A DNA stretch of 42,648 nt from Gammaproteobacteria bacterium (GTDB lineage: Bacteria > Pseudomonadota > Gammaproteobacteria > Pseudomonadales > Oleiphilaceae), in the NCBI GenBank assembly GCA_030427465.1, contig JAUIAZ010000002.1:1-42648 (forward strand), written 5' to 3'. The notes below the pieces were generated by a model that had not been told where the DNA came from, did no database searches, and saw nothing but the letters and a program-made list of their open reading frames with translations. Shown in pieces: positions 15,734 to 32,108 of the stretch; position 1 is the stretch's first letter, and every line of letters begins with the position of its first letter. The position numbers were made by a program, and so were the translations under genes.

Positions 15734-15821
15734 AGAATCCTCTCGGGGACAATACGGATTGAGCTTGGGGTTGGTGGGAGCCCATCATAACATCCTTAAT
15801 TCAACAATGAGAGGATCATGC

Positions 15822-16462: not shown

Positions 16463-17365
16463 TCATCTCAGGGTAAGCTGCTTTTCTTTCAGATCCGGCC
16501 CTGTTTTTTCAATCCAGGTGACAGTCACTTTGCGCCAGGTTTTAGCCGGTAAGGTGTCGGAATCGGTTAGCCCTACTTTGATTGTCAGGTGAATACGGGT
16601 GGTACTCAGGCCGGCATTAACAAGAGATTGGTAAACGGTTTGCGCTCTTTTTGCGGACAGCTGACGGTTGAGTGGCGAAGGACCGCTGCGATCTGCATAA
16701 CCCGTGATTTCCAGTGTTCCCTCATGATTGCTCAGTACCTGGACCAGGTTGTGAAGGCTGTACTCATCCTGCTCCGACATCGAGTACTGGCCTGGCTCGA
16801 AATAGGCGACAGTGAGGGCTGCGCCGGGCTCAACACCCGACAAGGTTTCAGAGACAGCAGATTCGTACAGGCTGATTTTGGTCCGGTAGCAGCAGCCTAA
16901 TAGCTGGTGCTCAACGACTAGGTAGTCTCTGAAGCCGTCCATATGGGGAAGGCGTCCCCAAGCTCTGCTAGTAGAAGCTTCCGGTAGGGGTTGTGCGTCG
17001 TTGTTGGCGCTGGACTGTGAGCAGTCTGTTTGTTCAAGTGCACAAGTATCCAGTGTCTGCCACCTGCCTTCGGCAACGGAGCGCCTGTCGGCATTTTGAA
17101 TAGACCAAAGCGACTGTTCTTCGGGCCAGTCGATTGACCACACTTGTCTGGAGCTGATGATCCTCCGGGTTGAAGATCCCAGGGTCAACTCATGTAGTCC
17201 AGGCCCTTTTTTCTGATATTCAAACAGGTTGAATTCTGTCGGGCTGCTGCTATACCAATGTTCCGGGCTGAAAGTCGCTGGCTCCTTACTTTGGACAGAG
17301 CAGCAGAGCATCATCAGCAGCATCGTAATAAGAGGGTGTTGCTTGCTATCAAATGAAAACTTCAT
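16463..17365 (-). CDS. OmpA-family protein at the end of the Tad operon
   Basis: A 300-residue secreted protein. The frame is open upstream, but the start at 17365 is chosen because a signal-like N-terminus (KQHPLITMLLMMLCC) begins there and the preceding gene ends at 17380. The last 110 residues are an OmpA-like peptidoglycan-binding domain: YFEPGQYSMSEQDEYSL, then LEITGYADRSGPSPLNRQLS with AKRAQTVYQSL, including the Asp and Arg that bind diaminopimelate. It likely anchors the pilus machine or an outer-membrane part to the cell wall. The N-terminal 180 residues are not recognised. Confidence 0.85.
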   Translation of the reverse strand: MKFSFDSKQHPLITMLLMMLCCSVQSKEPATFSPEHWYSSSPTEFNLFEYQKKGPGLHELTLGSSTRRIISSRQVWSIDWPEEQSLWSIQNADRRSVAEGRWQTLDTCALEQTDCSQSSANNDAQPLPEASTSRAWGRLPHMDGFRDYLVVEHQLLGCCYRTKISLYESAVSETLSGVEPGAALTVAYFEPGQYSMSEQDEYSLHNLVQVLSNHEGTLEITGYADRSGPSPLNRQLSAKRAQTVYQSLVNAGLSTTRIHLTIKVGLTDSDTLPAKTWRKVTVTWIEKTGPDLKEKQLTLR

Positions 17366-17379
17366 ACATAAAATCCGTA

Positions 17380-18150
17380 TTAATTCTGAAGTGAGTTGGC
17401 AATAAATGGGGTTTGCATCCTGGCAGTGGCCGTCGTAGACAACACCAGTAGTTTTTCGTGTACAACCGGCGGCCCCTGAGTACCATTGCCGCGAATGCAA
17501 TAATCCAGAAAAGGGCCTGGATCAGGATCTGTTTCGAACCACTGCAAGGCCTCAATCGCGTCGGCGAAAAAAGGCGTAATGAGTTTGTGGCAGTACCTGA
17601 CCCTGATCTGCAGCAGATTGGCATCCTGAATACTGATCGCGCCTTCCCCTCCGGCAAGGGGAATGGCAGATGAGTTTCTGTGGCTCAGGTGGGTGTGGGG
17701 GATTACCAGATTCAGCTGATAGGGGGTTAATAGACCTTTGTCTTTCGCACAGGGCTTGATCTGCTCCGGTAACAGCGGAATCTTCTGCTTGTGTGCATTG
17801 AAGGTTTCGCGGTTTGGACTGAGTGTTTCGATAAACGTATAGGTTGGAAAAAAATGTTTCCGTATCCTGCTGGCATCCGTGTAGCTAGCCAGGTTTTTTT
17901 CATCTCTCATCAGAAGCGGTGCCATGCTCAACTGAAACTGATCATACATGGCTGATTTGCAGCCATGATTCAATGTACCGGCGCGGACTGTCAGGGTTGC
18001 GGCGTGGTTCAGAAGCAGCTTTGCGCGATAGATCAAGGCAAACTCCAGACAGCCGATCACCAAGACCAGCAAAAGGGGAATAGCGAGTATCATTTCTACG
18101 CTCGCTGCGCCTTTCAGGCGTCTTGTGAATGCACGGGGACATTGAATCAC
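17380..18150 (-). CDS. TadE/TadF-type pseudopilin
   Basis: A 256-residue minor-pilin-like protein. It has a short basic leader, then G followed by AASVEM (Glu at +5 after the predicted cut) and a long hydrophobic helix, LAIPLLLVLVIGCLEFAL, the classic TadE/TadF/TadG layout. The C-terminal part is periplasmic with several cysteines. It overlaps the TPR lipoprotein gene by 4 bases. In Tad systems these proteins are processed by the prepilin peptidase and prime pilus assembly. Confidence 0.85.
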   Translation of the reverse strand: MIQCPRAFTRRLKGAASVEMILAIPLLLVLVIGCLEFALIYRAKLLLNHAATLTVRAGTLNHGCKSAMYDQFQLSMAPLLMRDEKNLASYTDASRIRKHFFPTYTFIETLSPNRETFNAHKQKIPLLPEQIKPCAKDKGLLTPYQLNLVIPHTHLSHRNSSAIPLAGGEGAISIQDANLLQIRVRYCHKLITPFFADAIEALQWFETDPDPGPFLDYCIRGNGTQGPPVVHEKLLVLSTTATARMQTPFIANSLQN

Positions 18151-18590
18151 TGGCTTTCCCCGATGACCTGAATTCCGTTGTAATAGTGTTCGAACGCTGC
18201 CCGGTATTCTCTGTAGCCACCGAACTGACGGTGTCCTTCTGCACTTAACTGACTGGCTTGCTCCAGGCGCACCTGCATCAGGTTGTAGAGCGCACGCGGG
18301 TCGGTTGTATCCAGTTCACTGGCCAATGTGTAGTGGGTTGCAGCAGCTTCCCAGTGTTGCAGATGGTAAGCACTGTTTCCCAAGCGCAGTTGGATAAAGC
18401 TGGATTCCGGGAAGTCATCCGCCAGGCTTGAGTACTGCAGGTAGGCCTGATTGTACTGCTGGTTTTGATAGGCTTGATCGGCGAGTTCTATCTTGCTGGC
18501 ATGGTTATCAGCAAACAGGCCAACGCTCTGGCAACCGGGAAGACCCAGGAGGCAAGCCAGCATTACAGGCAGGCTAAGCGGTTTCAGCAT
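18147..18590 (-). CDS. TadD-like TPR lipoprotein
   Basis: A 147-residue protein with a signal peptide ending in LPGC (lipidated Cys20). It then has TPR-like helical repeats (ADQAYQNQQYNQAYLQYSSL and LGNSAYHLQHWEAAATHYTL). In Tad loci TadD is a TPR lipoprotein thought to act as a pilotin or assembly factor for the secretin; this one is shorter than most TadD proteins. It overlaps DUF192 upstream by 7 bases and the pseudopilin downstream by 4. Confidence 0.8.
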   Translation of the reverse strand: MLKPLSLPVMLACLLGLPGCQSVGLFADNHASKIELADQAYQNQQYNQAYLQYSSLADDFPESSFIQLRLGNSAYHLQHWEAAATHYTLASELDTTDPRALYNLMQVRLEQASQLSAEGHRQFGGYREYRAAFEHYYNGIQVIGESQ

Positions 18591-18931
18591 GGCTGCAGCC
18601 TCACGACATCCTGTGGTTTCAACTGCTTGAACAGAGCGTGATCCGCCCTAAGCTCTATACATTGCGAAGCGCGAAGATTTCCGGTGCATCTCTTTGGCAT
18701 AACGGAGGCTTTGAATGAAACAACCCGCCAGGATTTGTCCAGAAAAATGACACCAATGGGAATGCGCATAGTAAAGGTATGGATTATACGGCAATCAGGT
18801 ATCAGCAGTGCATCGCTATCCAGGATGAACCGGTGCCGCGAAAAGCCTTGCAAACGGCTTCTGAACTGGTCTGCAATCATAACGTTTTTCAGGCTCGTTG
18901 AGTTTCCGTTCAACAGCAGATTCAGGCTCAT
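18584..18931 (-). CDS. DUF192 family protein in the Tad operon
   Basis: A 115-residue protein with the DUF192 pattern: SRLQGFSRHRF near the N-terminus, then DCRIIHTFTMRIPIGVIFLD and a C-terminal CIELRADHALFKQL. The family's role is unknown. Many DUF192 proteins carry a signal peptide; this one does not. It overlaps tadC by 4 bases and the TPR gene by 7, so it is made together with Tad machine parts. Confidence 0.85.
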   Translation of the reverse strand: MSLNLLLNGNSTSLKNVMIADQFRSRLQGFSRHRFILDSDALLIPDCRIIHTFTMRIPIGVIFLDKSWRVVSFKASVMPKRCTGNLRASQCIELRADHALFKQLKPQDVVRLQPC

Positions 18932-19797
18932 AGGGTATCCTTCAATTTGATTAGCATGGGAAAAGCCAGCACAAGAAAAGTGACGGGGAAAATGAAAACA
19001 ACCAAGGGAAATATGAGCTTCACGGGCGCCTGCATGGCGTGCTTTTCCGCTCGCTGAAAACGCTCAACACGACGCTGAAGGGCCTGGGTTCTCAAAGTAT
19101 TAACGAGCCCGCTACCACTGATCTCGGCTTGGGCGAGTGTGCTTACGAGCGTTCGGATTTCTGACAGGTCACAGCGATCGGAAAGGCTCAGAAGTGCTTC
19201 CTTCCGGCTCAGGCCGGTACGAATATCTCTCAGAACCCGTGACCACTCGTCCCGCATGGCCCCTGGGGGACCGTGTCTGACAGCCTGTTGAATGGCTCCG
19301 TTCAGGTTGATCCCGGCTTCAACGGCCATCAGCATGAAATCCAGATAAACTGGTAACTGGCGTACAATCTGAAGACCTCTGGCGCGGGCGTGGTCCCGGG
19401 TCTTGAGGGGCAAAGCGGCTCCACTCAATAGAAAGATAGCCGCGAATAGCCAAGTGGGCAGATTGATCTGTGCCCAGCTACCCAGAAGCAAGAACATGCC
19501 AGTGAAGGATACAGCCAGTGCCAGAGCTGTGCAGATAAACTCAGGTACGGTGAACTGGTAGCTCAGGCCTGAACGGTCCAGCAATCGCTGGGTTGCTGAC
19601 CTGAGACTGTCTGGAATATGTTGCTCCAGGGGCCATTGGAGCAGTTTCACCAAGGGCCATAACGCGACTGTCCAGGCCGGAGGCTGATCCAGGTGTGACC
19701 TCTGCTCTTCCCGGATGAGTCGGGTCAACTGCAAGCACCCCAGTGCAGCCATCACGGCCGAGGTGGCCCAGAGCATGGGTATCAGATAATCAAACAT
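18928..19797 (-). CDS. tadC: Tad pilus inner-membrane platform protein TadC
   Basis: A 289-residue T2SSF-domain protein. It has N-terminal membrane helices, a cytoplasmic region with DFMLMAVEAGINLNGAIQQA and LRDIRTGLSRKEALLSLSDR, and C-terminal helices (LIFPLVVFIFPVTFLVLAFP). With TadB it forms the platform in which the TadA motor works. It overlaps tadB by 8 bases. Confidence 0.92.
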   Translation of the reverse strand: MFDYLIPMLWATSAVMAALGCLQLTRLIREEQRSHLDQPPAWTVALWPLVKLLQWPLEQHIPDSLRSATQRLLDRSGLSYQFTVPEFICTALALAVSFTGMFLLLGSWAQINLPTWLFAAIFLLSGAALPLKTRDHARARGLQIVRQLPVYLDFMLMAVEAGINLNGAIQQAVRHGPPGAMRDEWSRVLRDIRTGLSRKEALLSLSDRCDLSEIRTLVSTLAQAEISGSGLVNTLRTQALQRRVERFQRAEKHAMQAPVKLIFPLVVFIFPVTFLVLAFPMLIKLKDTL

Positions 19798-20635
19798 CGA
19801 TATTCACGATCTTTCGAATGGTAAGAAATCCTGCAAACAGCATCAGGAAGCCAACTGTCAGAACCACCGTGCCGGCCAGAGTGTTAAACAGAACCTGCAT
19901 CATTTCGGGCTCAAGCACTGAAACTGCCCCCGCTACCAGCACAGGAAGAGCAGTCATTACCCAGCCTTGCATGCGTCCCTGAGCCGTCAGTGCGTCGATT
20001 CGTCCTCGCATCTCAATTTTTTGCTGCAAGGTGTTGGCGAGTTCATCGAGAAGCTTGGAGAGGTTCCCTCCGGTTTCACGGTTCAGACGTACGGCTGAAG
20101 CAAAGAGGATGATGTCTTCGTCAGGCAGACGGCTCATGAAGTGTTCAAGACAGCTATCGAGTGGATAGCCCATTCTCATTTCTTTGAGTACCAGGCCAAA
20201 TTCCTCACTCAACGGGGGGAGACCTTCCTTGACCGCAGTCTCCAGCGCGGTCTGAAAGCTGGCTCCGGCGCGGATTGACGCAGCGATTGCTCTGAGCGCA
20301 TCAACCAGTTGTAAAACTGCCGATGTCTGCCGCCTTTTCCGGTACACGGAACGGGCGATGGAGGGAATCAGGAATCCCAGCATCATTGCCGCCGGGACGC
20401 TGATCAAAGGAGAGGTGAACAGGCTGAAAAGCAAGCCTGCAACGATGCCACAGGACAAGTAGACTGCCAGGACATTCAACCGGGTCAAAAACAGGAAATG
20501 ATCACCCCAGGCTTGTTTCTGAGCGTCAATGAATCTCAGCATATAGTGCAGCGCTTTCCTGAGCAGACTAAAACAAGCCGGTGCGAGTACCAGAGCGGCG
20601 AGGCTACACAGGATCGCGACTTCAGCGGGGATCAT
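19790..20635 (-). CDS. tadB: Tad pilus inner-membrane platform protein TadB
   Basis: A 281-residue T2SSF-domain protein with two N-terminal helices and two C-terminal helices around a cytoplasmic domain. That domain contains LVDALRAIAASIRAGASFQT and the FASAVRLNRETGGNLSKLLD segment typical of TadB. It overlaps tadA by 4 bases (ATGA), which suggests coupled translation. Confidence 0.93.
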   Translation of the reverse strand: MIPAEVAILCSLAALVLAPACFSLLRKALHYMLRFIDAQKQAWGDHFLFLTRLNVLAVYLSCGIVAGLLFSLFTSPLISVPAAMMLGFLIPSIARSVYRKRRQTSAVLQLVDALRAIAASIRAGASFQTALETAVKEGLPPLSEEFGLVLKEMRMGYPLDSCLEHFMSRLPDEDIILFASAVRLNRETGGNLSKLLDELANTLQQKIEMRGRIDALTAQGRMQGWVMTALPVLVAGAVSVLEPEMMQVLFNTLAGTVVLTVGFLMLFAGFLTIRKIVNIDV

Positions 20636-22344
20636 GTGGCACTCCTGAATAGGGAGCGATCCACAGTAATACCGCGATGGGTCAACTTTTCATAGAAGTC
20701 TGGCAACACACCGGTGGACTCGAAGTTGCCCTGTACCCTGCCTTTGCTGTCATAACCTTCAACACGAAACCGGAATATTTCACTGAGTTGTATGGTGCCA
20801 TTGTCAATGCCACTTACCTCGCTGATTGAGGTCACCTTTCGTTGACCACACGGAAAACGGCTTTGCTGAACTATGAATTGAAGGGCTGAGGAAATCTGCT
20901 CACGGATGGCGATGAGGGGCAGATCCATACCAGCCATCATGACCATCACTTCCAGTCGCACAAGCGCATCACGTGGTGAGTTGGCATGTGCTGTCGTCAG
21001 TGAACCGTCATGCCCGGTATTCATGGCCTGCAACATATCCAGCGCCTCACCGCCGCGACATTCACCGACGATGATGCGATCTGGCCGCATACGCAGACAG
21101 TTTCTGACCAGGTCCCGGATGGTGATCAACCCTTGCCCTTCCTGGTTGCCCGGCCTTGCCTCGAGAGAGACCAGGTTGGGTTGGGCCAGTTGCAGTTCAG
21201 CGGCATCCTCTATGGTAACGATTCTTTCGTGGGCTGGAATGAAGGTGGATAGCACATTCAGCAAAGTGGTTTTTCCAGACCCGGTTCCCCCGGAAATCAG
21301 CACATTCTGCTTGTGTCTGACTACGCTCTGGAGGAACTGAACCATGGCTTCATTCAGAGAGTTCCTGTGGACAAGCTGCTCAGCGCTGAGTTTGCCTTTC
21401 GCGAATTTACGAATAGTCAGGCTAGGCCCCTTTAAAGCCAGCGGAGGAATGACAGCATTCACACGTGACCCGTCCGGCAAACGGGCATCTACCATGGGCG
21501 ATGATTCGTCGATACGTCGCCCGATTGGTGCAACGATGCGGTCTATGGCAGCGAGTACCGCCTGATTACTGGTGAAGGTGACATCGCTTTTCTGCAGCTG
21601 GCCATCCTCTTCGAAAAACACTTCATCAAAGCGGTTGACCATGACCTCTGAAACGCTGTCCTGTCGCAAGAGGCTCTCGAGCGGACCAAGACCGATCGCC
21701 TCGTCGATAACCTGTTCAATGAGTGACTCTCTGGGCAGGTGCTTGGGCAAGCCTTCGGACTGGGCAAGTATGTCCGTGATCCACTCATGCATCTTTTGTC
21801 GCAGCTGCTTCTGGTCGTACTGATCCAGATCCAGGCGTTTCAGATCGATGGTCTTGACGACTTCACGGTGTAGCCGGCGTCGCCAGTCCAGCAGCTCCTC
21901 AGCATATTCCGTCCGGCTGCCAATGCCCTCGGAGGAAAAGGCAGAGTTGACTGGCTGTGGACTGTTGACCGGACTGAGGTCTGTCTCCGGTTTCGGATCG
22001 GGCCTGTTTTCTTCCGTGAAGGAAGCCTGCTTTTCCCCTTCACATCCCGAACTCCCGGGTACCAGGTGGAGACGATAACTGGCGACTGACAACTGATCAC
22101 TGATCGTCACTTTGGTTGACTGGCTGATGGCTTTTCCATTAAGAGCACAGTTCCCCGCCATCGGGGTGATGACGGTGCAGCCATCCACAAGATCAATCAG
22201 CAAGTGCTCCTTCTGGATTCCCCAGTGGCGGACTCTGGCTTCGCACTGTGAGCTCCGCCCCAGCCTGAGCGGAAATTGCGTGAAAGCTTCTCTGAAGAGA
22301 CAGTGTCCATGACGGTTATGAAGACTCAGAATCAGCATGCTCAC
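20632..22344 (-). CDS. tadA: Tad pilus motor ATPase TadA with N-terminal FHA domain
   Basis: Hexameric secretion ATPase (CpaF/TadA family) driving Flp pilus assembly, 570 residues against about 420-480 usual. Residues 1-95 are an FHA-like domain with LRLGRSS (Arg30, Ser31), His47 and a shortened NCALNG loop. The Ser-Arg before the conserved His is Gln44-Lys45 here, so phosphothreonine binding is possible but not certain. After a linker (about 96-150) the motor domain follows, with the Walker A motif SGGTGSGKTTLLNVLS near residue 350, Walker B region DRIIVGECRGGEALDMLQ and the His box TGHDGSLTTAHANSP. It overlaps rcpA and tadB by 4 bases each. No tadZ gene lies in the operon. Confidence 0.92.
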   Translation of the reverse strand: MSMLILSLHNRHGHCLFREAFTQFPLRLGRSSQCEARVRHWGIQKEHLLIDLVDGCTVITPMAGNCALNGKAISQSTKVTISDQLSVASYRLHLVPGSSGCEGEKQASFTEENRPDPKPETDLSPVNSPQPVNSAFSSEGIGSRTEYAEELLDWRRRLHREVVKTIDLKRLDLDQYDQKQLRQKMHEWITDILAQSEGLPKHLPRESLIEQVIDEAIGLGPLESLLRQDSVSEVMVNRFDEVFFEEDGQLQKSDVTFTSNQAVLAAIDRIVAPIGRRIDESSPMVDARLPDGSRVNAVIPPLALKGPSLTIRKFAKGKLSAEQLVHRNSLNEAMVQFLQSVVRHKQNVLISGGTGSGKTTLLNVLSTFIPAHERIVTIEDAAELQLAQPNLVSLEARPGNQEGQGLITIRDLVRNCLRMRPDRIIVGECRGGEALDMLQAMNTGHDGSLTTAHANSPRDALVRLEVMVMMAGMDLPLIAIREQISSALQFIVQQSRFPCGQRKVTSISEVSGIDNGTIQLSEIFRFRVEGYDSKGRVQGNFESTGVLPDFYEKLTHRGITVDRSLFRSAT

Positions 22345-23834
22345 TCCTTGATACTGCCAGCGATTGAGGTCTTGGCCATGGGGGTCATGATTTCCTGAAG
22401 CTGTTCCCCCAGTTTCGGCAAGGCACTGTTGTCCGTATCGGATTCAGTGGCCGTCAGATGTGGTGTCAGGAAAACAGCCAGCTCGCGATGGTTCACGTCA
22501 TCCAGTTCGCTGCGAAACAAGCGACCTATCCAGGGGATTTCCCCCAGACCCGGGAGTGCAGAAGAGCCCTTGTCCTGTTCAATAGACATCAGACCCGACA
22601 GCACGATGGTTTCTCCGAGCCGGCTGGTAACGACAGAAGAAACCGATTTTGAAACCAGGCCAGGAACGCCATTGATGGCGATGGCCTGATCGATGGAGCT
22701 CACCTCAGCATTGATTTCGACGGTTACGCCGGCCCGGGCTTTACTGACTCTGGGTAGAATGGTCAGGAGTACACCATAATCCCGGAATTCCACGCCAACA
22801 TTTCCGGTTCGCGCATCAATCACGGGATAGGGAATTTCTCCGCCGGAGTGGAATGTCGAGGGCGTGCCATCGCGGGTACTGAGCATGGGGCGAGCCAGCA
22901 TTCTGGCCTCACCGGCTTCCTTGAGCAGATCCAGTTGAGAATCCAGCTGGGTAATCAGGCCGACTGAACCGGCAGCACCTTTAAAACCTGCCGGAAGCCC
23001 GTTGGCAATGTTCTGAGCGCCGGGCGTCGGGGTGAAACTCTGAAAGAGTTCAGTATTACCACCCGTCAGTGCGATTCCAGCAGCCGGTCCACCCAGGGTG
23101 GATGCCCACCGAACACCCAGTTTCTCCAGGTGCCTGCGTCGAACCTCAAGAATCTGGACGTCCACCATCACCATGGACTTGTTGCTCGCCCGGTCCTCCT
23201 GCGCACTGTTAACACAGTTCGAACAGACTTTCAGAACCTGCTCCAGTACCTCACGGTCTTCAGGCGCGTAGGATCCTGAGATGGAAATCCAGCCATCCTG
23301 ATTCAACACCCGGAGGTTTGGCATGTCTGCCAATGCATTTTCGATCATACGGGACTGGTCAACGTGGACATTGATCCGGACTTGCTCCTGTAGTGATTTG
23401 CCCAGGCGCTCGCGAATATCTGCCAGCTGAGCGTCACTACCCACTTCCCCGCGGACCAGCACATTGCCGTTTTCAATCGAAACCCTGAGGCCGGGGTAAA
23501 GCTGTAAACGTTGGCGGACATCTTTCAGGACACTGTTGGGATCCTGATCTCGTACAACGACTTGAAACAGTGACTTCCGGTTGCCTGTATGCCACACAAC
23601 CAGATCTGTAGAGCCTGAGCGCTGGGGTATGATCAGCAACTCTTCCGGTGACAGGATGTGGGTGGAAATAAAAGAGTCATGGCCGACTGCAACACGCTCG
23701 ATATCCCTGACCCGAAGGGTTTCCACTTTACCTACATGCAGAGTCAGTGTTTCCTGGTGTTTGAATGGGAAGCGTTCGGCAGCAACGGTGATGGTGCATA
23801 CCAGACTAAGCAACAAAGACAGGAATCGCTTCAT
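22341..23834 (-). CDS. rcpA: Tad pilus outer-membrane secretin RcpA/CpaC
   Basis: A 497-residue secretin with a Sec signal peptide. An N-terminal domain (ETLTLHVGKVETLRVRDIERVAVG), a BON-like segment (LYPGLRVSIENGNVLVRGEVG) and a C-terminal secretin beta-barrel domain follow in order. The barrel domain has the family hallmark LPGLGEIPWIGRLFRS and ends in LAVFLTPHL. It forms the outer-membrane pore for the pilus. It overlaps rcpC and tadA by 4 bases each. Confidence 0.94.
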   Translation of the reverse strand: MKRFLSLLLSLVCTITVAAERFPFKHQETLTLHVGKVETLRVRDIERVAVGHDSFISTHILSPEELLIIPQRSGSTDLVVWHTGNRKSLFQVVVRDQDPNSVLKDVRQRLQLYPGLRVSIENGNVLVRGEVGSDAQLADIRERLGKSLQEQVRINVHVDQSRMIENALADMPNLRVLNQDGWISISGSYAPEDREVLEQVLKVCSNCVNSAQEDRASNKSMVMVDVQILEVRRRHLEKLGVRWASTLGGPAAGIALTGGNTELFQSFTPTPGAQNIANGLPAGFKGAAGSVGLITQLDSQLDLLKEAGEARMLARPMLSTRDGTPSTFHSGGEIPYPVIDARTGNVGVEFRDYGVLLTILPRVSKARAGVTVEINAEVSSIDQAIAINGVPGLVSKSVSSVVTSRLGETIVLSGLMSIEQDKGSSALPGLGEIPWIGRLFRSELDDVNHRELAVFLTPHLTATESDTDNSALPKLGEQLQEIMTPMAKTSIAGSIKE

Positions 23835-24667
23835 TGTGGTTTCCTCAGAAAAGCAGGGGTGAGCTGGCCATCTTTCTGGCGGGTTCCCGTGAAGACTGGA
23901 ATTACATTGGAACCGGCCTCGCCACTGTCCAGCAGCGTCTGAAAGGGCAGAGGCGACTGATCACCTCTGCCTCTGAGAAGGTAAACCAGAGAGCGGCTTT
24001 CCCTCGCCATCAGTGCCCTGGCCGCCAGCGCTGCATCCAACACGATAGTCAGGCTGCGGTAGCCCAGTTGTGCGACCTCCGCTTCCTGCACAACGGCCAG
24101 ATTCTGCTGGCTGGCCCGGCGTAGACTGCCTGTTGCTATTACCGGAACATTTTCAGCCAGGATGACCAGGCTGTTTTCCTGGCCATTTTTCTCACGGAGC
24201 AGCAAATCAATATGATCGCCGACGGATATCATGCCCTCAATGGAGCTAAGGGAGTCGACGTCAAGTGTGATTGCCCGTTGTCCGGGACCGACGAGCTCCG
24301 AAAAGAAATCACTGACCGCCGGTTGTAAGTAGCTGAAGAGCAGTGGCTTGCCGCGCACGATGCCGGTTTTGAGTCGAAACCCGTCAATCTGTGAAAAATC
24401 TTCTGTGCTGATAATGTCTTCTGGCAAAAACTGTGGATCTACCAGTGCAGCGGCCAATTTATCTACATTGAGCACGTCACCGGGTTCGAGATTCTGAGAG
24501 GCGACAATGATGTTGACCCGCTGACCGCTGTCTGCAAACAAGGCTGCTTTCAGCTCTGCATGTTCCTCAGCGAGCCAACCCCGCGAAAGCCACCATGCGC
24601 TTATGGCCAGAAGCCCGGCAAATATCAGTTGCAGCCAGACCATCTGCCTGGATTCAAGAAAGGACAT
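23831..24667 (-). CDS. rcpC: Tad pilus assembly protein RcpC/CpaB
   Basis: A 278-residue protein with one N-terminal membrane helix (QLIFAGLLAISAWWLSRGWL) and a SAF domain (VNIIVASQNLEPGDVLNVDK). The RcpC/CpaB C-terminal domain follows, with AITLDVDSLSSIEGMISVGD. It is thought to act in the periplasm with the secretin. It overlaps rcpA by 4 bases and starts 3 bases after the small gene upstream. Confidence 0.92.
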   Translation of the reverse strand: MSFLESRQMVWLQLIFAGLLAISAWWLSRGWLAEEHAELKAALFADSGQRVNIIVASQNLEPGDVLNVDKLAAALVDPQFLPEDIISTEDFSQIDGFRLKTGIVRGKPLLFSYLQPAVSDFFSELVGPGQRAITLDVDSLSSIEGMISVGDHIDLLLREKNGQENSLVILAENVPVIATGSLRRASQQNLAVVQEAEVAQLGYRSLTIVLDAALAARALMARESRSLVYLLRGRGDQSPLPFQTLLDSGEAGSNVIPVFTGTRQKDGQLTPAFLRKPQ

Positions 24668-24670
24668 GAT

Positions 24671-24886
24671 TCACTCCGAGTCTGGATTGGCCAGTCCGAA
24701 GACCCAGGCCTGGTGATTGCTTCTAAGGTTTTCGACCAACCAGCTGGCGAGACTCTGGTCATCCTGTCCCGGTACCGGTAACAACATCATCAGAGAGAGA
24801 ACAGTGCCAAGACACAGGGACTCAGCAGTTATACTGCCTGTTTGATAGGTTTTCATTTTTGAACATCCTTGTTCGTTAAAATTCAT
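24671..24886 (-). CDS. Small prepilin-like protein (71 aa)
   Basis: A short gene locked into the operon: its ATG overlaps the stop of the upstream gene (ATGA at 24883-24886), and rcpC starts 3 bases after its stop. The product has a polar leader of 17 residues ending in TG, then SITAES with Glu at +5 and a hydrophobic stretch (LCLGTVLSLMMLLPVPG), followed by about 35 polar residues. That layout resembles TadE-type class III prepilin signals. An internal ATG at codon 11 (MKTYQTG) is the alternative start. No known family is recognised; a minor pilin or an assembly peptide is the best guess. Confidence 0.65.
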   Translation of the reverse strand: MNFNEQGCSKMKTYQTGSITAESLCLGTVLSLMMLLPVPGQDDQSLASWLVENLRSNHQAWVFGLANPDSE

Positions 24887-25590
24887 AGCGTTTCCGTGAC
24901 GCGAATGATGTGGCTGCTTCCGTTGCGATTCATCAAGACGATGAAACGCTTATGCCCCTTTTTTTCCAGGTAAAACAGCTTTGAATCAGGCATCTCAGCC
25001 AACCCTGAAGTGAGAGCCCTGACTGACCAGTCCTGCGTCCTGGCCAAAGCCAGCATCTCCGCCTCAATGCGTTCGAGCGTGCTCTGGGACACAATGACCT
25101 CCACCTCGGAGTGCTTTATCTGATCATCGTAGGTCTGGTGAAGAATACGTTCTGAAGACGTACCGAATTCCCGCTTGAAGTCACTGGTCGCTCTGCTTTC
25201 TTCCTGACCCGATTCAGATAGTTCGGTCTGAACCAGCCAGGCAAGCGTGTGTCCGTCAAGCTCCTGGACCTGAACTCCACAGAAGAAGCCATCGGTTATC
25301 TGCCCCCCGACTTGCCAGTCACCGTAAGGCTGAAGGGTCGCCGCAGGCAGGGCGGGCTCAAGTGCCTGCCAGTGATCACGGAAGTGTGTAAACAGGGAGC
25401 TGGCGTCCAGGGAGCTGGAAAGCAGCAGAGTACGCTGGCGTATCCCGAAGTAATGGGTCGGGTCGGGCGCACCAAGCACCTGACTGTCCCGGGGGTAACC
25501 CCAGTCAGGCCAGTCCGGGCTGTCAAAGGCTGAAGCCTTGCCTGGCAGAACAAGAATTATCAGTAAAGAAATGAACATCAGGCAGCGCAT
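24883..25590 (-). CDS. Unknown secreted protein of the Tad operon
   Basis: A 235-residue protein with a clear Sec signal peptide (FISLLIILVLPGKASA, cut before FDSPD). The mature part begins DWPDWGYPRDSQVLGAPDP and has one internal cysteine in DGFFCGVQV and no membrane helix, so it is predicted to be periplasmic. No family is recognised. It begins 2 bases after the TadE-like gene and overlaps the small prepilin-like gene by 4, so it is surely co-made with the Tad system. Confidence 0.8.
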   Translation of the reverse strand: MRCLMFISLLIILVLPGKASAFDSPDWPDWGYPRDSQVLGAPDPTHYFGIRQRTLLLSSSLDASSLFTHFRDHWQALEPALPAATLQPYGDWQVGGQITDGFFCGVQVQELDGHTLAWLVQTELSESGQEESRATSDFKREFGTSSERILHQTYDDQIKHSEVEVIVSQSTLERIEAEMLALARTQDWSVRALTSGLAEMPDSKLFYLEKKGHKRFIVLMNRNGSSHIIRVTETL

Positions 25591-25592
25591 AT

Positions 25593-26423
25593 TCAGTTTT
25601 TTCCCAGCTTCATTTTCCGTTGTTCAGGGACTTGCTGCGTATCGACATGCCCCAACCGGAGCTCTGACAGATGATCCAGCCAGGGGATGATTGAAGACGC
25701 ATCGCTGACTCCGTCAGTCTGCGCGGTGAGGTCCGAAGCCAGGGCGGTGGGTACAAGCTGGCTGACCAGTGCGCCTGCATCGGAATAGCTCCCAGAGGCC
25801 CAGCCATCCTGAAGCATCAACAGTTTTGCCTTGGCAGAGAACTCCGGAGATGCGGCCTCAAAATAGGGGTGCCATGACATGACGGGGTAGCGCACTTCTA
25901 CCAATGCTTGTTGGTAACCGAGATGACCGGGTTCATAGTCGATTTTTTTCAGTAAGGACAGAACTTGGTTGCGGATTTCTGCGGCCAGGTTGCCGGGTGT
26001 TTCAGTCCGGGTAGCCGCACTGAAATGTGACCCCTTCAGGTCGGTCAGCAAGGGAGCATATTCACCGGTATCGGAATTGGCTGCCCAAAGAATAGGGTCG
26101 CCGATGTCCTCGCTGTCCCCACTGCTGTTATTCTGATTGCCGGGGTCAGTGCTCAACCGTTCATAAGGGGAGAGCCACAGGCGCGACCGCACTTCAGCAG
26201 CCATTTCATCGTCTGATTTAAGGGCGGTTTCCGTAGCAAAAGGCCGGGACTGCTTTGACCAGACGGTTCTTTCCCAGGCCATATATCGGGCACTCTCCTG
26301 CGTTCTGTGCTGTATTTCAAACATCTTGCTCAACAAGGGAAGCGCCAGGAAAAGTGGCAGTAGAAGAAACAGTGTAACGATCAGGAACTCAGTCAGGGCC
26401 TGCCCGGAATGTCTTGATTTCAC
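25593..26423 (-). CDS. TadE-like pseudopilin
   Basis: A 276-residue protein with a short leader MKSRHSG, then QALTEF (Glu at +5, aromatic at +6) and a hydrophobic helix IVTLFLLLPLFLALPLL, as in TadE-type pseudopilins. A periplasmic part of about 240 residues follows. The leader matches the pilin at 28000-28284 in form (G then Q-x-x-T-E-Y/F), so the same peptidase should process both. It overlaps the TadG-like gene by 4 bases. Confidence 0.84.
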   Translation of the reverse strand: MKSRHSGQALTEFLIVTLFLLLPLFLALPLLSKMFEIQHRTQESARYMAWERTVWSKQSRPFATETALKSDDEMAAEVRSRLWLSPYERLSTDPGNQNNSSGDSEDIGDPILWAANSDTGEYAPLLTDLKGSHFSAATRTETPGNLAAEIRNQVLSLLKKIDYEPGHLGYQQALVEVRYPVMSWHPYFEAASPEFSAKAKLLMLQDGWASGSYSDAGALVSQLVPTALASDLTAQTDGVSDASSIIPWLDHLSELRLGHVDTQQVPEQRKMKLGKN

Positions 26424-27937
26424 AAGGCATCCTCCGAAGCGAGCGCCCAGAAGCGTTTGGCTAGTCCGGTAGACTGAGTCAGCCGTGGTACCCAGAACGG
26501 ATTGTACAAATTGCCGAGTTCAACGCTGGAGGCTTTTGAGCCCTCCCAGGGAGCCTCAAATACAGCGTGGGCAGCTGATTTGGCGTACAGCATGGTCTGG
26601 GGTGAATCGTTACCCGTTTCAGGAGAGAACCCGGGCGAAACCCGCGAAGCACGTTCGCCCGTCCTGGAAACCGGCAGCTCCAAGAGAATGTTGATGGGGG
26701 TGCTGGCGTTGGTCGTGATTGGCGAATCTGGATCGCTGAAGTCATTGTCCGGCGTCAGATCCATGAACGAGCGCAGGCCCTGGATTTCACCACCGACAGC
26801 TCCTGTGCCCAAGCGGCCGAACCCTTCATTTCGACCGGTTTCACTGACTTTGAAGTGGCCAATGTGGGTGAGAGGATCGTTTTGTGGACCCTCAAAATAT
26901 GGGGCTTGCCCACTATTGTCGCGCCGTACTACCTGTTTCCAGGCGTATTTATTGCGGCTGCTTGCCTTGTTCCAATGGGTCTTTCTTCGTGTTTGTCTCC
27001 AGTTCAGAGCGGGCTGATGGTAAGTGGCCTGTCTGCCCCAGCCAAGAGGCACCCCTTCACGCCAACCCCGGAAGGGTAGTTTGCCCCAGAAACTCATGGT
27101 GTCGACCGCGGTCCAGCCATAGTAAGGTAGCGTTTTTCCAGGCACGGCTCCGAGGTAACTGCCACCATACTGTCGGAACTTGAACTTCATTACCCCGGTA
27201 CTGAAACTGAGGAAGTCACCCCGTCGGGATGCCGTGAAACCATCACGACTGCGCATGGTGATGTCGCGGAACTCATCAAGACGCTCACGATCCTTACCTG
27301 CTTCTTGCTCGGCTGTGTGCACGGAGTACCGGGAAATCATCTTTGACCAATCTTTGTAGTTCGCCAGGCTGACGCCGGTACCCACCCAGTTAAGCTGAAT
27401 GTCTGGATCATTTTCAGTGACCACAGCTGGTATATCACTGAGCAGGCTGCTCACTGTCTGTAGATGCCAGGCCGCTGAAGCCGCGCTGAGTGCTGCGTTC
27501 GCCAGATCAGCTGCGAAAGAAATGCCTGAGCCAATATGCTGGACGGCGAAATTAGCCGCTCCGGATACCCGTTCCAGAATCTGGATCGCCGAGCTGATGG
27601 CAGCGCCTATCGGGTGTACTTTGAGCAGATGGCTCAGCGTGGAGACGTTGTAAAGAATCTGCTGGTTATTCTGCAGGTAGGAGCTCAAGGCAACCATTTG
27701 ACCAATGGCGACCTGATTGGCGACCATTGCCCGATTCATGTGTGCATGAAAATTCAGCTCTCTGGCCTGCATAACGGCCGCTGAATAAGCGGTAGCATCA
27801 GCCACCTGCTGAAGTCGGGTCTTGTTCTGCACCAGGCGACCGGCGTCATGCAGCATGACAGTCACCATAACCAGGGCGATCAGAAAAAAAGACGCGAAAA
27901 CAGTCAGGTAGCCCTTCTGTCGAATGGCTCCTTGCAT
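26420..27937 (-). CDS. TadG-like Flp pilus assembly protein
   Basis: A 505-residue protein whose N-terminus is typical of TadG: a membrane helix (VFASFFLIALVMVTVMLHDA) followed by GRLVQNKTRLQQVADATAYS. The long periplasmic part has no von Willebrand A (MIDAS) motif that I can see, unlike many TadG proteins. It is the first gene after the pilin, which lies 62 bases upstream across a hairpin. A strong site, GGGAGGAG, precedes the ATG. Confidence 0.84.
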   Translation of the reverse strand: MQGAIRQKGYLTVFASFFLIALVMVTVMLHDAGRLVQNKTRLQQVADATAYSAAVMQARELNFHAHMNRAMVANQVAIGQMVALSSYLQNNQQILYNVSTLSHLLKVHPIGAAISSAIQILERVSGAANFAVQHIGSGISFAADLANAALSAASAAWHLQTVSSLLSDIPAVVTENDPDIQLNWVGTGVSLANYKDWSKMISRYSVHTAEQEAGKDRERLDEFRDITMRSRDGFTASRRGDFLSFSTGVMKFKFRQYGGSYLGAVPGKTLPYYGWTAVDTMSFWGKLPFRGWREGVPLGWGRQATYHQPALNWRQTRRKTHWNKASSRNKYAWKQVVRRDNSGQAPYFEGPQNDPLTHIGHFKVSETGRNEGFGRLGTGAVGGEIQGLRSFMDLTPDNDFSDPDSPITTNASTPINILLELPVSRTGERASRVSPGFSPETGNDSPQTMLYAKSAAHAVFEAPWEGSKASSVELGNLYNPFWVPRLTQSTGLAKRFWALASEDAL

Positions 27938-27956
27938 GCGAACGCTCCTCCCTGAG

Positions 27957-27989
27957 CGGACACAATGACTGAAAGTCGGTTTTTGTCCG
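27957..27989 (-). other. Hairpin between pilin and the rest of the Tad operon
   Basis: CGGACA (27957-27962) pairs with TGTCCG (27984-27989), and inside it GACT (27967-27970) pairs with AGTC (27974-27977). No T run follows in the minus direction. The structure may protect the pilin message or reduce read-through, giving more pilin than assembly proteins. Confidence 0.45.
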
Positions 27990-27999
27990 GCGTTAAGCC

Positions 28000-28284
28000 T
28001 TACTGCGTAATCGCAATACTCGCGGCTTCATTGTAGGTAGCCAGAGTGGCCCGGTTGCTCTGCTCGGAAACCTGCAGGGCAGCCTGACCGGACTCAGACG
28101 CACGGACCACGGCCGCAGAGCCGTCCTGGCCCCCGAGTTCCGATGCCATGCTGGCAACCTGGTTTCTGACCGCTGAGCCAAACAGGCCATAGACGCCGAT
28201 GGCGGCGACAGCAATCAGTGCAACGATGATGAGATATTCAGTCATGCCTTGGCCGGCATGGCGGAGTGACAGTGAAAAACGCAT
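28000..28284 (-). CDS. flp: Flp-type major pilin candidate
   Basis: A 94-residue prepilin. The leader MRFSLSLRHAG is cut before QGMTEYLII, placing Glu at +5 and Tyr at +6 as in Flp pilins. The hydrophobic helix is LIIVALIAVAAIGVYGLFG. The mature part is about 83 residues, longer than many Flp pilins (about 50-60), with an Ala/Ser/Gln-rich tail. It is the only pilin of this type in the locus and has its own promoter-like region, which suits a major subunit. The prepilin peptidase (TadV) is not in the window. Confidence 0.88.
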   Translation of the reverse strand: MRFSLSLRHAGQGMTEYLIIVALIAVAAIGVYGLFGSAVRNQVASMASELGGQDGSAAVVRASESGQAALQVSEQSNRATLATYNEAASIAITQ

Positions 28285-28327
28285 ATCCGAAATCCTTTCT
28301 TGAATGGCGCATTGTCTTGAGGTTGTG

Positions 28328-28369
28328 TCGCACTACATCCTTATAGTGCGAGTGGAAACTATAATTCAA
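28328..28369 (-). promoter_or_regulatory. Pilin promoter with overlapping inverted-repeat operator
   Basis: On the minus strand TTGAAT (28369-28364) and TATAAG (28345-28340), 18 bases apart, make a good sigma70-type promoter about 55 bases before the pilin ATG. An 8-bp perfect inverted repeat, TCGCACTA (28328-28335) with TAGTGCGA (28344-28351), covers the -10 and the expected start site near 28333. Only half of it would be transcribed, so it is more likely a protein-binding site than an RNA hairpin. The regulator is unknown. Confidence 0.55.
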
Positions 28370-28386
28370 AAGCTGGGGGAACCCCA
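28367..28386 (-). terminator. Weak terminator between the FHA gene and the pilin
   Basis: On the minus strand TGGGG and CCCCA (28386-28382 and 28378-28374) form a 5-bp G-C stem with a 3-base loop, followed after GC by TTTT. It sits 33 bases after the FHA gene stop and immediately upstream of the pilin -35. It may separate the FHA transcript from the pilin operon. Confidence 0.4.
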
Positions 28387-28419
28387 ACAGAATTATTCTT
28401 ACCGATGAACAGAATGTGA

Positions 28420-29331
28420 TCAGTTTAACGTGAAGTACGCAATTGTACCCACAAGTCCGAGCACGATAACGGCGATCATGACCCAGTAACTGGCTGGTTT
28501 GCCCGGGTTAGGTGCCTCAGCTGAGGCTACTGTATGGCTGAGATGAGGAGAGGTACTGCGACCGCCGCCGCTGACACTGGGTTCGGTTTTTGGCCGAATG
28601 GCTTTGACCTTGGGTTTATTGCTTCTGGGGGCTGTGGGCTGGGCTGGCTTTGGAGCGCCAGCCGTGGAGCCTGTAGCCTGAGGTGCCTGGCGGACGATGG
28701 TTTTGTTGGCATCTTCCTTGGGCCCCACCACGGTAAAGTTCACCACATCGAAGCGAACTTTATCACCGGGTTTTGCCCGTCCCTGTGTAATCCGCTCACC
28801 GTTCAGGAACGTTCCGTTGGTGGAATCGAGATCTTTGATCAACAAAAACCCCCCGGTTGGGGTCAGACGCGCATGCTGGCGTGAGAGGTGATTGACCGGT
28901 ACACAGATATCACATTCGGGGTCGCGGCCGATAATCACATTGTTCCCAATGGGAAACAGACTTTTCTGAGCCCAGCTGGCATCCGTGGCCAGACCCCAGC
29001 CATCGGCTTCGTGCTCCTGAGTAGGTTCCATCTTTTTGAGATCTTGAGAGGGGTGGATAATACGCAAACTGACGGGACCGATCTGAAACAGATCGCCGGC
29101 CTTGAGACGAACCGCTTTCTGTACCCGTTTTCCATTGACAACAACACTGTATTCCGGGTTCACATTTTTGAGGTAAAGCTCCTCATCCTTCTGGATCAGT
29201 TCGGCATGAAAGGCTTCGATTTCCGGCGCATCCAGAATCAGTTTATTCTGGCTGTCTTTACCGATTCTGAAACGCGCATCCACGAGCCAGATACTTTCCC
29301 GGCTGCCATCGGCAAACTGTAGTTTGAGCAT
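28420..29331 (-). CDS. Tandem-FHA protein with C-terminal membrane anchor
   Basis: A 303-residue protein. FHA1 (about residues 1-95) is degenerate: GK replaces the GR motif and no SRxxH is seen, though VVVNGKRV remains. FHA2 (about 115-205) is complete: GRDPECDI (Arg136), LSRQHARL (Ser150, Arg151, His153) and STNGTFLNG (Asn172), so it should bind phosphothreonine. A Pro/Lys/Ser-rich linker leads to a single C-terminal helix (YWVMIAVIVLGLVGTIAYF), leaving the FHA domains in the cytoplasm. It lies between the Tad operon and the kinase/phosphatase genes and is divergent from the latter. Confidence 0.9.
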   Translation of the reverse strand: MLKLQFADGSRESIWLVDARFRIGKDSQNKLILDAPEIEAFHAELIQKDEELYLKNVNPEYSVVVNGKRVQKAVRLKAGDLFQIGPVSLRIIHPSQDLKKMEPTQEHEADGWGLATDASWAQKSLFPIGNNVIIGRDPECDICVPVNHLSRQHARLTPTGGFLLIKDLDSTNGTFLNGERITQGRAKPGDKVRFDVVNFTVVGPKEDANKTIVRQAPQATGSTAGAPKPAQPTAPRSNKPKVKAIRPKTEPSVSGGGRSTSPHLSHTVASAEAPNPGKPASYWVMIAVIVLGLVGTIAYFTLN

Positions 29332-29489
29332 TACCCTGGGTTCCCTTCGTCAACGTGAGGCGGTGTGACGACCGACTGTAAGAATCATCTATAGCAGTAT
29401 AGCCAAAGAAAACCGGCACATAGCAAAAGCCAATCTATACTTTACTCAGGGAAAGCGTTCAATTTTCAAGCATTTGGAAAACACAGGGC

Positions 29490-30293
29490 ATGCAGGCCGG
29501 TTTCAGAACCCACATCGGACAGCGAGACAGCAATCAGGACAACGGTCTGATGGATCTCAAGCGGGGTCTTTTTGCCGTCGCGGATGGCGTTGGCGGTGGT
29601 CAGCTGGGTGAAGAGGCCAGTGCCTCGGTCTGTCTGGTACTGGAACGGTCCACGCAACAGGGCCAGCCGCTGATTCAGGGCATCCTCAATGCGCATGAAG
29701 CCCTGCGGGAAACCACACGTAATGAGGGTGGCAGACAGTATTCTGCGACCACTATTGCCGCGCTGCAGCTTAAGGGTGAGGAAGCGAATATCTGCTGGGT
29801 GGGCGATAGCCGGGTATACCTCGTGAGGGATGGGCGCTTGCTGCAAATGACGGAAGACCACGCGCTGGAAGGGGAGCAGCATGTTCTGACCCAGGCGGTA
29901 GGTGCCCCTCTCGGAAAACCCATGGAAGCAGGTACTCACTGCTATAAACGCCAGGAGGGAGATATCTGGCTGTTGTGCAGTGATGGTTTTTATAACCTTC
30001 TGCCAGATCAGGACTTGCTGGACATTCTTTCGCTGGAGAACGCTGCGGATGATCTTGCAGCCAGACTTATGCAAACCGCCCTGGAAAACGGTCCGGACGA
30101 TAACCTGACCTTGCTGGTGGTTCGCGATTCTGTAAACAGCCCCGAAAACGCTGAGGTTTTGGAATTGTTCGGAGACCATCAGGGAGCAGAAGCAGATGAA
30201 CCGAAGCCGATGGCGCGTTGGGCTGTCGTGGCGATGGTATTTGCCCTGATATTCACTGCCCTTATCCTGAGTCAGTGGTCGGGGGGGAAATAG
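29490..30293 (+). CDS. PP2C-family Ser/Thr phosphatase, membrane-anchored
   Basis: A 267-residue metal-dependent phosphatase with the PP2C motifs in order: RDSNQDNG, VADGVGGG, WVGDSRVYLVRDG with TEDHAL, CSDGFYNLLPDQ and GPDDNLTLLVV. All metal-binding aspartates are present. A single C-terminal helix follows (RWAVVAMVFALIFTALILS, about residues 243-261), so the catalytic domain faces the cytoplasm. The kinase gene starts 3 bases after its stop, so the pair forms an opposing enzyme couple. It resembles PppA/Stp-type phosphatases. Confidence 0.93.
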   Translation: MQAGFRTHIGQRDSNQDNGLMDLKRGLFAVADGVGGGQLGEEASASVCLVLERSTQQGQPLIQGILNAHEALRETTRNEGGRQYSATTIAALQLKGEEANICWVGDSRVYLVRDGRLLQMTEDHALEGEQHVLTQAVGAPLGKPMEAGTHCYKRQEGDIWLLCSDGFYNLLPDQDLLDILSLENAADDLAARLMQTALENGPDDNLTLLVVRDSVNSPENAEVLELFGDHQGAEADEPKPMARWAVVAMVFALIFTALILSQWSGGK

Positions 30294-30296
30294 GCT

Positions 30297-32108
30297 ATGG
30301 CCTGGCAGGGATACAAGGTCATCAGCAAGTTGGGTGAGGGCGGTATGGCAACCGTCTATAAGGCCATTCAGGAAAGCCTGCAGCGACCGGTCGCGATCAA
30401 GATTCTGGCTGCCAACCTGAAAGATCACCCCGAGATGCAGGAGATGTTTGAGTCAGAATCTCTCATCATCGCCCGTCTAAACCATCCGCACATTATCCAC
30501 GTGATTGATCGCGGGGTAACCAGTAAGGGGCGACCCTATTTCGTTATGGAGTTTGTCGAAGGTTTATCGCTTGAAGAAGCCATAAACCGGGACAAGCTTG
30601 ATTATCCGAAAAAGCTCGATGTGCTGGTTCAGATCTGCAAGGCACTGGCTTACGCGCACAAGAACAAAGTGATTCACCGGGATATCAAACCTGGCAACAT
30701 CATGATTGATCAGGATCAGCAGGCACGGGTGCTGGACTTCGGTATCGCTCATCTGTTCGATAAGTCTGAAAGTAATAGCAGTGAAAGCCCCAGTATTCTG
30801 GGCACCAATGCCTATATGGCACCCGAACTGCACCGGTCAGCGGAGAATGCGTCGGTCCAGAGTGACCTGTTTGCTCTGGGCATTCTGATGTATGAGCTGT
30901 TTACGGGGGTGCAGCCTCAGGGTGATATTCCACCACCGACGCAGTTTGAACCGGAACTGCCGCTGGAGTTGAACAATATTATCGTACACTGCCTGGCTGA
31001 AGAGCCTGAGGACCGGCCTTCATCGGCGGACGATGTGAAAAATGTGTTGCTGCATCTGTTGCGGGGTGGCCATCTCCGTAAGGATCAGAAAGCGCAGGCA
31101 GAACAGCAACAGCCAGGCGTCGATGGCAAGTTTGAACTGCTGGACGTACTTAAAGAAGACCGCAACAATTCGGTCTATCTGTATGAGGATGCCAGCCGAC
31201 AGAAGCTGATCATTGTGAAAAAGCTGCCACCCAATGCGGATGGCATGAAAGAACAGAAACTGTTGACCCGTCTGCGTCATGATCACATCGTTCAGGTTAT
31301 GGGCGTTTCCTGTGACAGTCAGCATTGTACGCTGGTCACCGAGTATCTGAGTGGGGGTAGTCTGGCTGAACAGTTGCTGGCGCCTGTGGATTCGCTCAAG
31401 GCAATGAGCTGGGGACGGCAGATGGCTGAGGCCCTGGTTTTTGCGCATAAAAACCGCATTACGCATGGCAATCTCAGACCCGGAAATGTGCTGTTTGACG
31501 AATATGGCTCTATTAAACTGAGTGACTTCGGCTTGCAGGCGCACTATCACAACAGCGAGGAAGTGAACTGGTACGAGCACCCGAGCCTTGAGGGTGCCCA
31601 GGGTGACCTGTTTGCGCTAGGGGCGATCCTGTTTCATGCGGTTACCGGTAAACCACCGCAGTTCCGTTCGGGACAGTTGATGCGAAGCCGGGCCTTTTCG
31701 GAGCTACCCGAGCGAGTGCAGGAGGTGTTGGGGCGCTTGCTGGCGGCTCCTCATCAAAATCGCTACCCGACGACGGAAGTGGTCGTTGCAGAGTTACGTG
31801 GTGTCCTTCAGGTACTGGCGGACCAGGCGGAGCAGAACCGCAAGCTGGAAGTGAAGAAGTCAGTGGCTGAAGTGGCAAAGGCGGAGCAGCAAAGCCGGAA
31901 GGAACCGTTTCCCTGGGGGCGCTGGATATTCCGGCTGATTTTGCTGGCCATCGTCGTCGAAGAAGTCATTCTGGGTTACGGCTGGAAAACAGCCTGGCCC
32001 TATCTTCAGCCCTGGCTGGAAGAAGCCAGACAGTGGGTTGAGGGCCTGAAGCAAAGCGACTCTTACATCGAATGGTCTGACAAGAGTCGCAAGCTGCTGG
32101 GCCAGTAG
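30297..32108 (+). CDS. Membrane-anchored Ser/Thr kinase with second, pseudokinase domain
   Basis: A 603-residue protein. Kinase domain 1 (about residues 5-265) is complete: GEGGMATVY loop, Lys35, HRD at 127-129, DFG at 147-149 and TNAYMAPE. A second kinase-fold domain follows (about 279-510). It keeps the ATP lysine (Lys308), Asn397 and DFG (Asp410), but lacks the glycine loop, and its HRD is HGN (390-392), so the catalytic Asp is Asn. It is likely a pseudokinase that regulates domain 1 or recruits substrates. A charged linker and one C-terminal helix (RWIFRLILLAIVVEEVILGY) end the protein, with no PASTA domains. It is coupled to the PP2C gene. Confidence 0.93.
   Translation: MAWQGYKVISKLGEGGMATVYKAIQESLQRPVAIKILAANLKDHPEMQEMFESESLIIARLNHPHIIHVIDRGVTSKGRPYFVMEFVEGLSLEEAINRDKLDYPKKLDVLVQICKALAYAHKNKVIHRDIKPGNIMIDQDQQARVLDFGIAHLFDKSESNSSESPSILGTNAYMAPELHRSAENASVQSDLFALGILMYELFTGVQPQGDIPPPTQFEPELPLELNNIIVHCLAEEPEDRPSSADDVKNVLLHLLRGGHLRKDQKAQAEQQQPGVDGKFELLDVLKEDRNNSVYLYEDASRQKLIIVKKLPPNADGMKEQKLLTRLRHDHIVQVMGVSCDSQHCTLVTEYLSGGSLAEQLLAPVDSLKAMSWGRQMAEALVFAHKNRITHGNLRPGNVLFDEYGSIKLSDFGLQAHYHNSEEVNWYEHPSLEGAQGDLFALGAILFHAVTGKPPQFRSGQLMRSRAFSELPERVQEVLGRLLAAPHQNRYPTTEVVVAELRGVLQVLADQAEQNRKLEVKKSVAEVAKAEQQSRKEPFPWGRWIFRLILLAIVVEEVILGYGWKTAWPYLQPWLEEARQWVEGLKQSDSYIEWSDKSRKLLGQ

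Follow-up and report, generated by a model that had tools for sequence, protein, structure and literature searches.

The contig JAUIAZ010000002.1, a stretch of 42,648 nucleotides from a gammaproteobacterium of the Oleiphilaceae (hereafter the window, meaning the whole stretch analysed), carries an operon for a Tad (tight adherence, type IVc) pilus beside three genes that encode an FHA-domain membrane protein, a PP2C phosphatase and a Ser/Thr kinase (hereafter the trio). The question raised by this locus is whether the trio controls the assembly of the pilus, as an earlier note on this DNA had proposed. Little is understood of the placement of the Tad motor and of the way it is switched on, and TadZ is taken to belong to the core of the system. 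The reading favoured here, with a probability of about 0.62, is that the window holds two self-contained modules side by side, namely a class III Tad operon devoid of TadZ and a portable trio. Gene content, the FHA fold, the states of its residues and the independent occurrence of both modules are direct observations; we infer no obligatory link between the two modules, and a coupling of trio and pilus in the window is possible.

Regarding the first module, the Tad genes form a single cluster on the minus strand (16463-28284; Table 1), which includes the core set, namely RcpA, RcpC, TadA, TadB/TadC and a Flp-type pilin, together with TadD, TadE and TadG-like proteins. The description of a full Tad operon in the earlier note holds for these genes and fails for two others, since the cluster has neither a TadZ (MinD-like) gene nor one for a prepilin peptidase. 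As for the latter, no Peptidase_A24 match was found across the whole assembly (G000, 94% complete), even if pilins are encoded; this may be an assembly gap. The 71-residue protein and the secreted 235-residue protein (24671-25590) are without a family and are conserved members of this type of Tad operon.

The motor TadA displays the class III architecture: an N-terminal FHA fold, a linker and the T2SSE ATPase core. The Pfam match to FHA is marginal (18.4 bits in one search and 22.5 in another, with a cut-off of 20.7). AlphaFold2, given the window sequence and 15 relatives, nevertheless yields a confident model for residues 1-97 (predicted local distance difference test, pLDDT, mostly above 90), for which the top hits in the PDB are FHA domains (such as Ki67, GarA and OdhI), with YscD of type III secretion lower in the list. 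Judging from this model, the FHA fold is real, in agreement with the FHA-like domain that the earlier note had seen on the motor. In residue alignments, Arg30, which follows the first Gly, is retained, the serine of the SRxH motif is replaced by Gln44, and TNGT is broken, the Asn column of the alignment being ambiguous. The domain looks degenerate, with key phosphothreonine-binding residues lost, and is probably phospho-independent, which runs counter to the earlier suggestion that it recruits phosphorylated partners to the motor. Among the 64 TadA FHA domains examined, 22 have the binding signature and 42 do not, in calls that vary with the alignment (L112 was scored as signature-bearing by position) and with a signature test that was picked after the sister clade described below had been seen, G411 and G418 having come later. 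A Trp, often within GW, stands where the lost binding loop begins in 29 of the 42 signature-less domains versus 1 of the 22 others, hinting at a shared contact that does not involve phosphate. In the clade of the window, the FHA fold would probably be a phospho-independent dock that tethers or positions the motor, the job done elsewhere by TadZ.

The same residues bear on a different possibility, according to which the FHA domain of the window TadA is a working phosphothreonine reader despite its changed residues, served by kinases encoded elsewhere in the genome. The retention of Arg30 and the confident fold resembling GarA and OdhI agree with it, and another kinase, with Sel1 repeats, is indeed present in the same genome (G000:C6); set against the replacement of the SRxH serine by Gln, the TNGT motif that is not intact, and the prevalence of signature-less domains, most of which have Trp instead and look changed in function, this appears quite improbable.

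As for the second module, the earlier note had correctly recognised a tandem-FHA membrane protein and, divergent from it, the PP2C and kinase genes. The FHA gene is upstream of flp and on the same strand, the PP2C and kinase genes are divergent from it, and the trio stands outside the Tad operon; all three proteins have a membrane segment. In the membrane FHA protein, the first domain (FHA1) is degenerate and only the second (FHA2) has the phosphothreonine signature (IGR, SRQH, STNGT), while the kinase gene is a tandem of an active-looking domain (HRDIKPGN) followed by a pseudokinase (HGNLRPGN). The trio would act as a portable, membrane-tethered switch, in which the kinase phosphorylates threonines, PP2C strips the phosphate and the canonical FHA2 reads phosphothreonine. 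The possibility that the FHA gene is co-transcribed with flp was considered, and the terminator-like site between them argues against it without being decisive. This two-FHA family also has a DKTxVR-like motif just after FHA2 (NKTIVR in the window), conserved in L191-L196, L198 and L203, which by analogy with GarA and OdhI could be a candidate phosphothreonine site.

Whether the two modules belong together was judged from their occurrence in relatives. Across the order, 93 of 294 genomes have a TadA match (E ≤ 1e-30). The loci closest by gene order (L036-L048 and L053, up to 20 kb inspected) are without kinase, PP2C and further FHA genes nearby, and so are L233-L237, which belong to the family (f1) and to the TadA clade of the window and for which extra flanks were read at four or more of the five loci. 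In the maximum-likelihood tree of TadA cores, calculated without five rows that lack the anchor motif (L048 among them), the window groups with L044 (99/93) within a clade of 19 (99/96); only one of these 19 has a kinase nearby, the window itself, and its sister L044 is without.

Seen from the side of the trio, 20 strong relatives of the tandem kinase (E < 1e-100) were found within the order. Tad genes are missing from all 19 neighbourhoods of its orthologs that were inspected, which argues against a conserved linkage of trio and Tad as traced by this kinase. At E ≤ 1e-8, the FHA protein matches proteins of 91 other genomes. The complete set of three genes, divergent as in the window and with no Tad gene nearby, occurs in at least seven Pseudomonadales genomes (L191, L192, L194, L195, L199, L200 and L204), six of which are devoid of TadA at E ≤ 1e-30. 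The trio of the window fits this standalone Pseudomonadales module, in which a two-FHA membrane protein is divergent from a PP2C-kinase pair; synteny with the DUF2505 and RNase R genes of the window was not seen in relatives. Because relatives have the trio without any pilus, the Tad pilus is not necessarily its main client. Wide occurrence of the trio without the Tad operon is the finding that the earlier note itself had set against its proposal, and the co-occurrence of the trio with FHA-tadA, which it had suggested as a check, is absent from the rest of the clade of the window; a sister clade of 13 loci does combine FHA-tadA with genes for a kinase, a PP2C and an FHA protein.

Indeed, in these 13 FHA-TadA loci (L050-L052, L054-L056, L058 and L211-L216, from families f28, f17 and f21), a gene for a Ser/Thr kinase of about 325 residues is divergent from the pilin gene, one for an FHA protein of about 525 residues lies between DUF192 and TadD, and one for a PP2C of about 222 residues between TadD and TadE; the kinase was not found in L055, nor the PP2C in L056. 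The FHA domains of their TadA proteins keep the signature, with SRxH and TNG and with Lys replacing Arg, and the tree places the window TadA outside this clade. Two further genomes from the family of the window, G411 and G418, combine a signature-bearing TadA FHA with a kinase gene that closes the operon on its 3' side (L238, L239, L241 and L242); their TadA proteins group with L053 (98/81) and then with the 13 sister loci (100/98). Because the tree sets them near the sister clade, they are a further observation and perhaps not an independent gain. From these gene contents and FHA domains, the general idea of a Tad pilus controlled by phosphorylation appears better supported in the sister clade than in the window, where the attachment of the trio to Tad assembly, as first proposed, goes mostly unsupported.

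Comparison across loci brings out a further pattern. A TadZ-like gene, as scored by a motif scan, adjoins 0 of 65 FHA-TadA loci and 31 of 50 loci with an FHA-less TadA (Fisher test, 3e-15); genes nearby also differ, with kinases at 18/65 versus 1/50, PP2C at 15/65 versus 0/50 and other FHA genes at 24/65 versus 0/50, in counts marked by uneven sampling of loci, short flanks (often 10 kb or less) and related rows, so that p-values are guides only. Within the FHA-TadA loci, a kinase is near 15 of 22 signature-bearing and 3 of 42 signature-less TadA FHA domains; when the 13-locus clade is counted once, the figures become 4 of 10 and 3 of 42 (p 0.02). Because TadZ-like genes are missing from all 65 FHA-TadA loci and present at 31 of the 50 others, the comparison suggests that FHA replaces TadZ as the docking part of the motor. 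A broader proposal, in which FHA-bearing TadA would mark a Tad class whose FHA replaces the TadZ dock and is mostly phospho-free, being switchable in the sister clade and in the kinase-bearing pair G411 and G418 through a kinase, a PP2C and a membrane FHA protein whose genes lie in or next to the operon, is tentative and falls somewhat short of even odds.

Other TadA arrangements were met in the same survey. In Bdellovibrionota (L140, L142, L143 and L144), a MinD/ParA-like domain is fused at the N-terminus of TadA, giving proteins of about 715 residues (Pfam shows the domain in L140), and these Tad loci have FHA, FHA-TPR and PP2C genes upstream of RcpC. Orphan FHA-TadA genes (L049, L057, L217 and L218; 529-544 residues) have no recognised Tad neighbours, in genomes where a complete Tad operon is also present; a PP2C gene lies close to L049.

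The contrast between FHA-TadA and FHA-less loci in kinase and other FHA genes also bears on a second alternative, in which this lineage brought the portable trio under the Tad locus, where it now governs the assembly of the pilus. The kinase would become active on contact or under envelope stress, the membrane FHA protein, and possibly TadA, would read phosphothreonine, and PP2C would reset the system. Besides those counts, it draws on the adjacency and divergent layout of the genes, on the membrane segment in each of the three proteins, and on the sister-clade operons with a trio, similar pairings having arisen elsewhere. It is nonetheless unlikely, though less so than a reader on TadA, given that no other member of the Tad clade of the window has the trio, that the trio is common without Tad, that binding residues are lost from the TadA FHA and that a terminator-like site separates the FHA gene from flp. 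Some points do weigh against two independent modules: chance alone would rarely place them side by side in a 4-Mb genome, although the window was picked for that adjacency; kinases next to FHA-TadA operons are a recurrent finding in other lineages; and the terminator is a consensus match only, with four such sites found in the region versus 1.7 expected. In addition, the TadZ count is based on a scan for the Walker-A motif, FHA2, the canonical domain of the membrane protein, could recognise a Tad component once it is phosphorylated, and Arg30, kept in the TadA FHA, may leave some residual binding of phosphopeptides.

Type VI secretion is regulated by the threonine phosphorylation pathway PpkA/PppA/Fha. 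The trio resembles it in having kinase, PP2C and FHA genes together and differs in that its neighbours are Tad genes. The FHA protein of the window scores 57 bits against TagH of type VI secretion, with a cut-off of 120 bits; no gene for the sheath protein VipB was found in the G000 genome, and a type VI secretion origin of the trio was rejected on this ground. With GarA/OdhI and FhaB-type switches, the trio shares a canonical FHA domain with kinase and PP2C genes nearby, and the motif after FHA2; unlike them, the protein is membrane-anchored and has two FHA domains, the first of which is degenerate.

FHA-bearing TadA/CpaF proteins have already been published as class III CpaF, mostly from betaproteobacteria, with the FHA described as a phosphothreonine-binding domain (PMC12019362). 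The window TadA matches this class in its N-terminal FHA fold, linker and T2SSE core and in the Tad assembly genes around it; it departs from it in the loss of the signature, as in most class III relatives examined, and in loci without TadZ. For the Tad-like Kil system of Myxococcus, a proposal of 2021 already invoked signalling through an FHA cascade, on the model of type VI secretion (PMC8460266). Kil also has an FHA-bearing ATPase (KilF) and extra FHA proteins, but it is split in two clusters and has no TadG or TadD, whereas the single cluster of the window includes TadG-like and TadD-like genes; moreover, the TadA tree sets Myxococcus and the window in different clades. Nothing relevant was found in the literature, of which coverage was incomplete, about Tad operons with a kinase/PP2C pair or about a replacement of TadZ by FHA, and this silence is weak support for the novelty of either.

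Finally, the adjacency of the two modules might be an artefact of the draft assembly, as the window is one entire contig (C3, 42.6 kb) of a genome of 3.96 Mb in 535 contigs. The tetranucleotide profiles of its left, Tad and right parts are alike and resemble those of other G000 contigs, and nothing is broken at the junction between Tad and trio, making this explanation very improbable; composition gives no sign of a chimeric contig, and the profile of the trio segment, which is short, shows weaker correlations throughout. Elsewhere, two divergent DUF1439 genes adjoin the Tad cluster at 15176-16394, and another contig of the genome (G000:C298; L110, 10323 onward) encodes a further FHA protein of about 786 residues with two FHA domains.

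Table 1. Features of the window: the trio, the site between it and flp, and the Tad genes in their order from 28284 down to 16463.
Feature	Coordinates	Strand	Evidence
Ser/Thr kinase, 603 residues: kinase, pseudokinase and transmembrane segment	30297..32108	+	Pkinase 256.6 bits, two stretches
PP2C phosphatase, C-terminal transmembrane segment	29490..30293	+	PP2C 53.5 bits
Membrane-anchored tandem-FHA protein, 303 residues	28420..29331	-	FHA 112.9 bits, two stretches; C-terminal transmembrane segment
Terminator-like hairpin between FHA gene and flp	28372..28388	-	7-bp stem and T-rich tail; fold z -1.77
Flp-type major pilin, 94 residues	28000..28284	-	Motif G/MTEYLIIVALIAV; conserved homologs
TadG-like protein	26420..27937	-	Pfam Tad 36 bits
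TadF/TadE-like pseudopilin	25593..26423	-	N-terminus G/QALTEFLIV; position conserved
Secreted 235-residue protein, position conserved	24883..25590	-	Without Pfam match; homologs L038, L041, L046, L047, L236, L237
Small 71-residue protein	24671..24886	-	phmmer matches in L036, L037, L045 and f1 loci
RcpC/CpaB	23831..24667	-	Pfam RcpC 53.9 bits, and SAF
RcpA/CpaC secretin	22341..23834	-	Pfam Secretin 121 bits
TadA/CpaF motor ATPase, N-terminal FHA fold, class III architecture	20632..22344	-	T2SSE 212.8 bits; model, PDB matches, residue alignments
TadB inner-membrane platform	19790..20635	-	T2SSF 64.3 bits
TadC inner-membrane platform	18928..19797	-	T2SSF 62.3 bits
DUF192 protein, conserved in this Tad operon type	18584..18931	-	Pfam DUF192 40.4 bits; same position in most relatives
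TadD-like TPR lipoprotein	18147..18590	-	Weak TPR matches; lipobox-like N-terminus; position kept in relatives
TadE-like minor pilin	17380..18150	-	Pfam TadE 36.3 bits
OmpA-domain protein, 3' end of Tad cluster	16463..17365	-	Pfam OmpA 48.6 bits; alternative upstream start at 17500

In conclusion, an FHA fold on the motor is not in itself proof of phosphothreonine binding, contrary to the description of class III CpaF, and the phosphorylation idea would be better examined in the sister group, whose loci carry a kinase, a phosphatase and an FHA gene of their own. If the broader proposal is true, the FHA-bearing motors would form a large class in which TadZ has been swapped for FHA, and the one clade with its own kinase and phosphatase would offer a direct genetic handle on the switching of the pilus.

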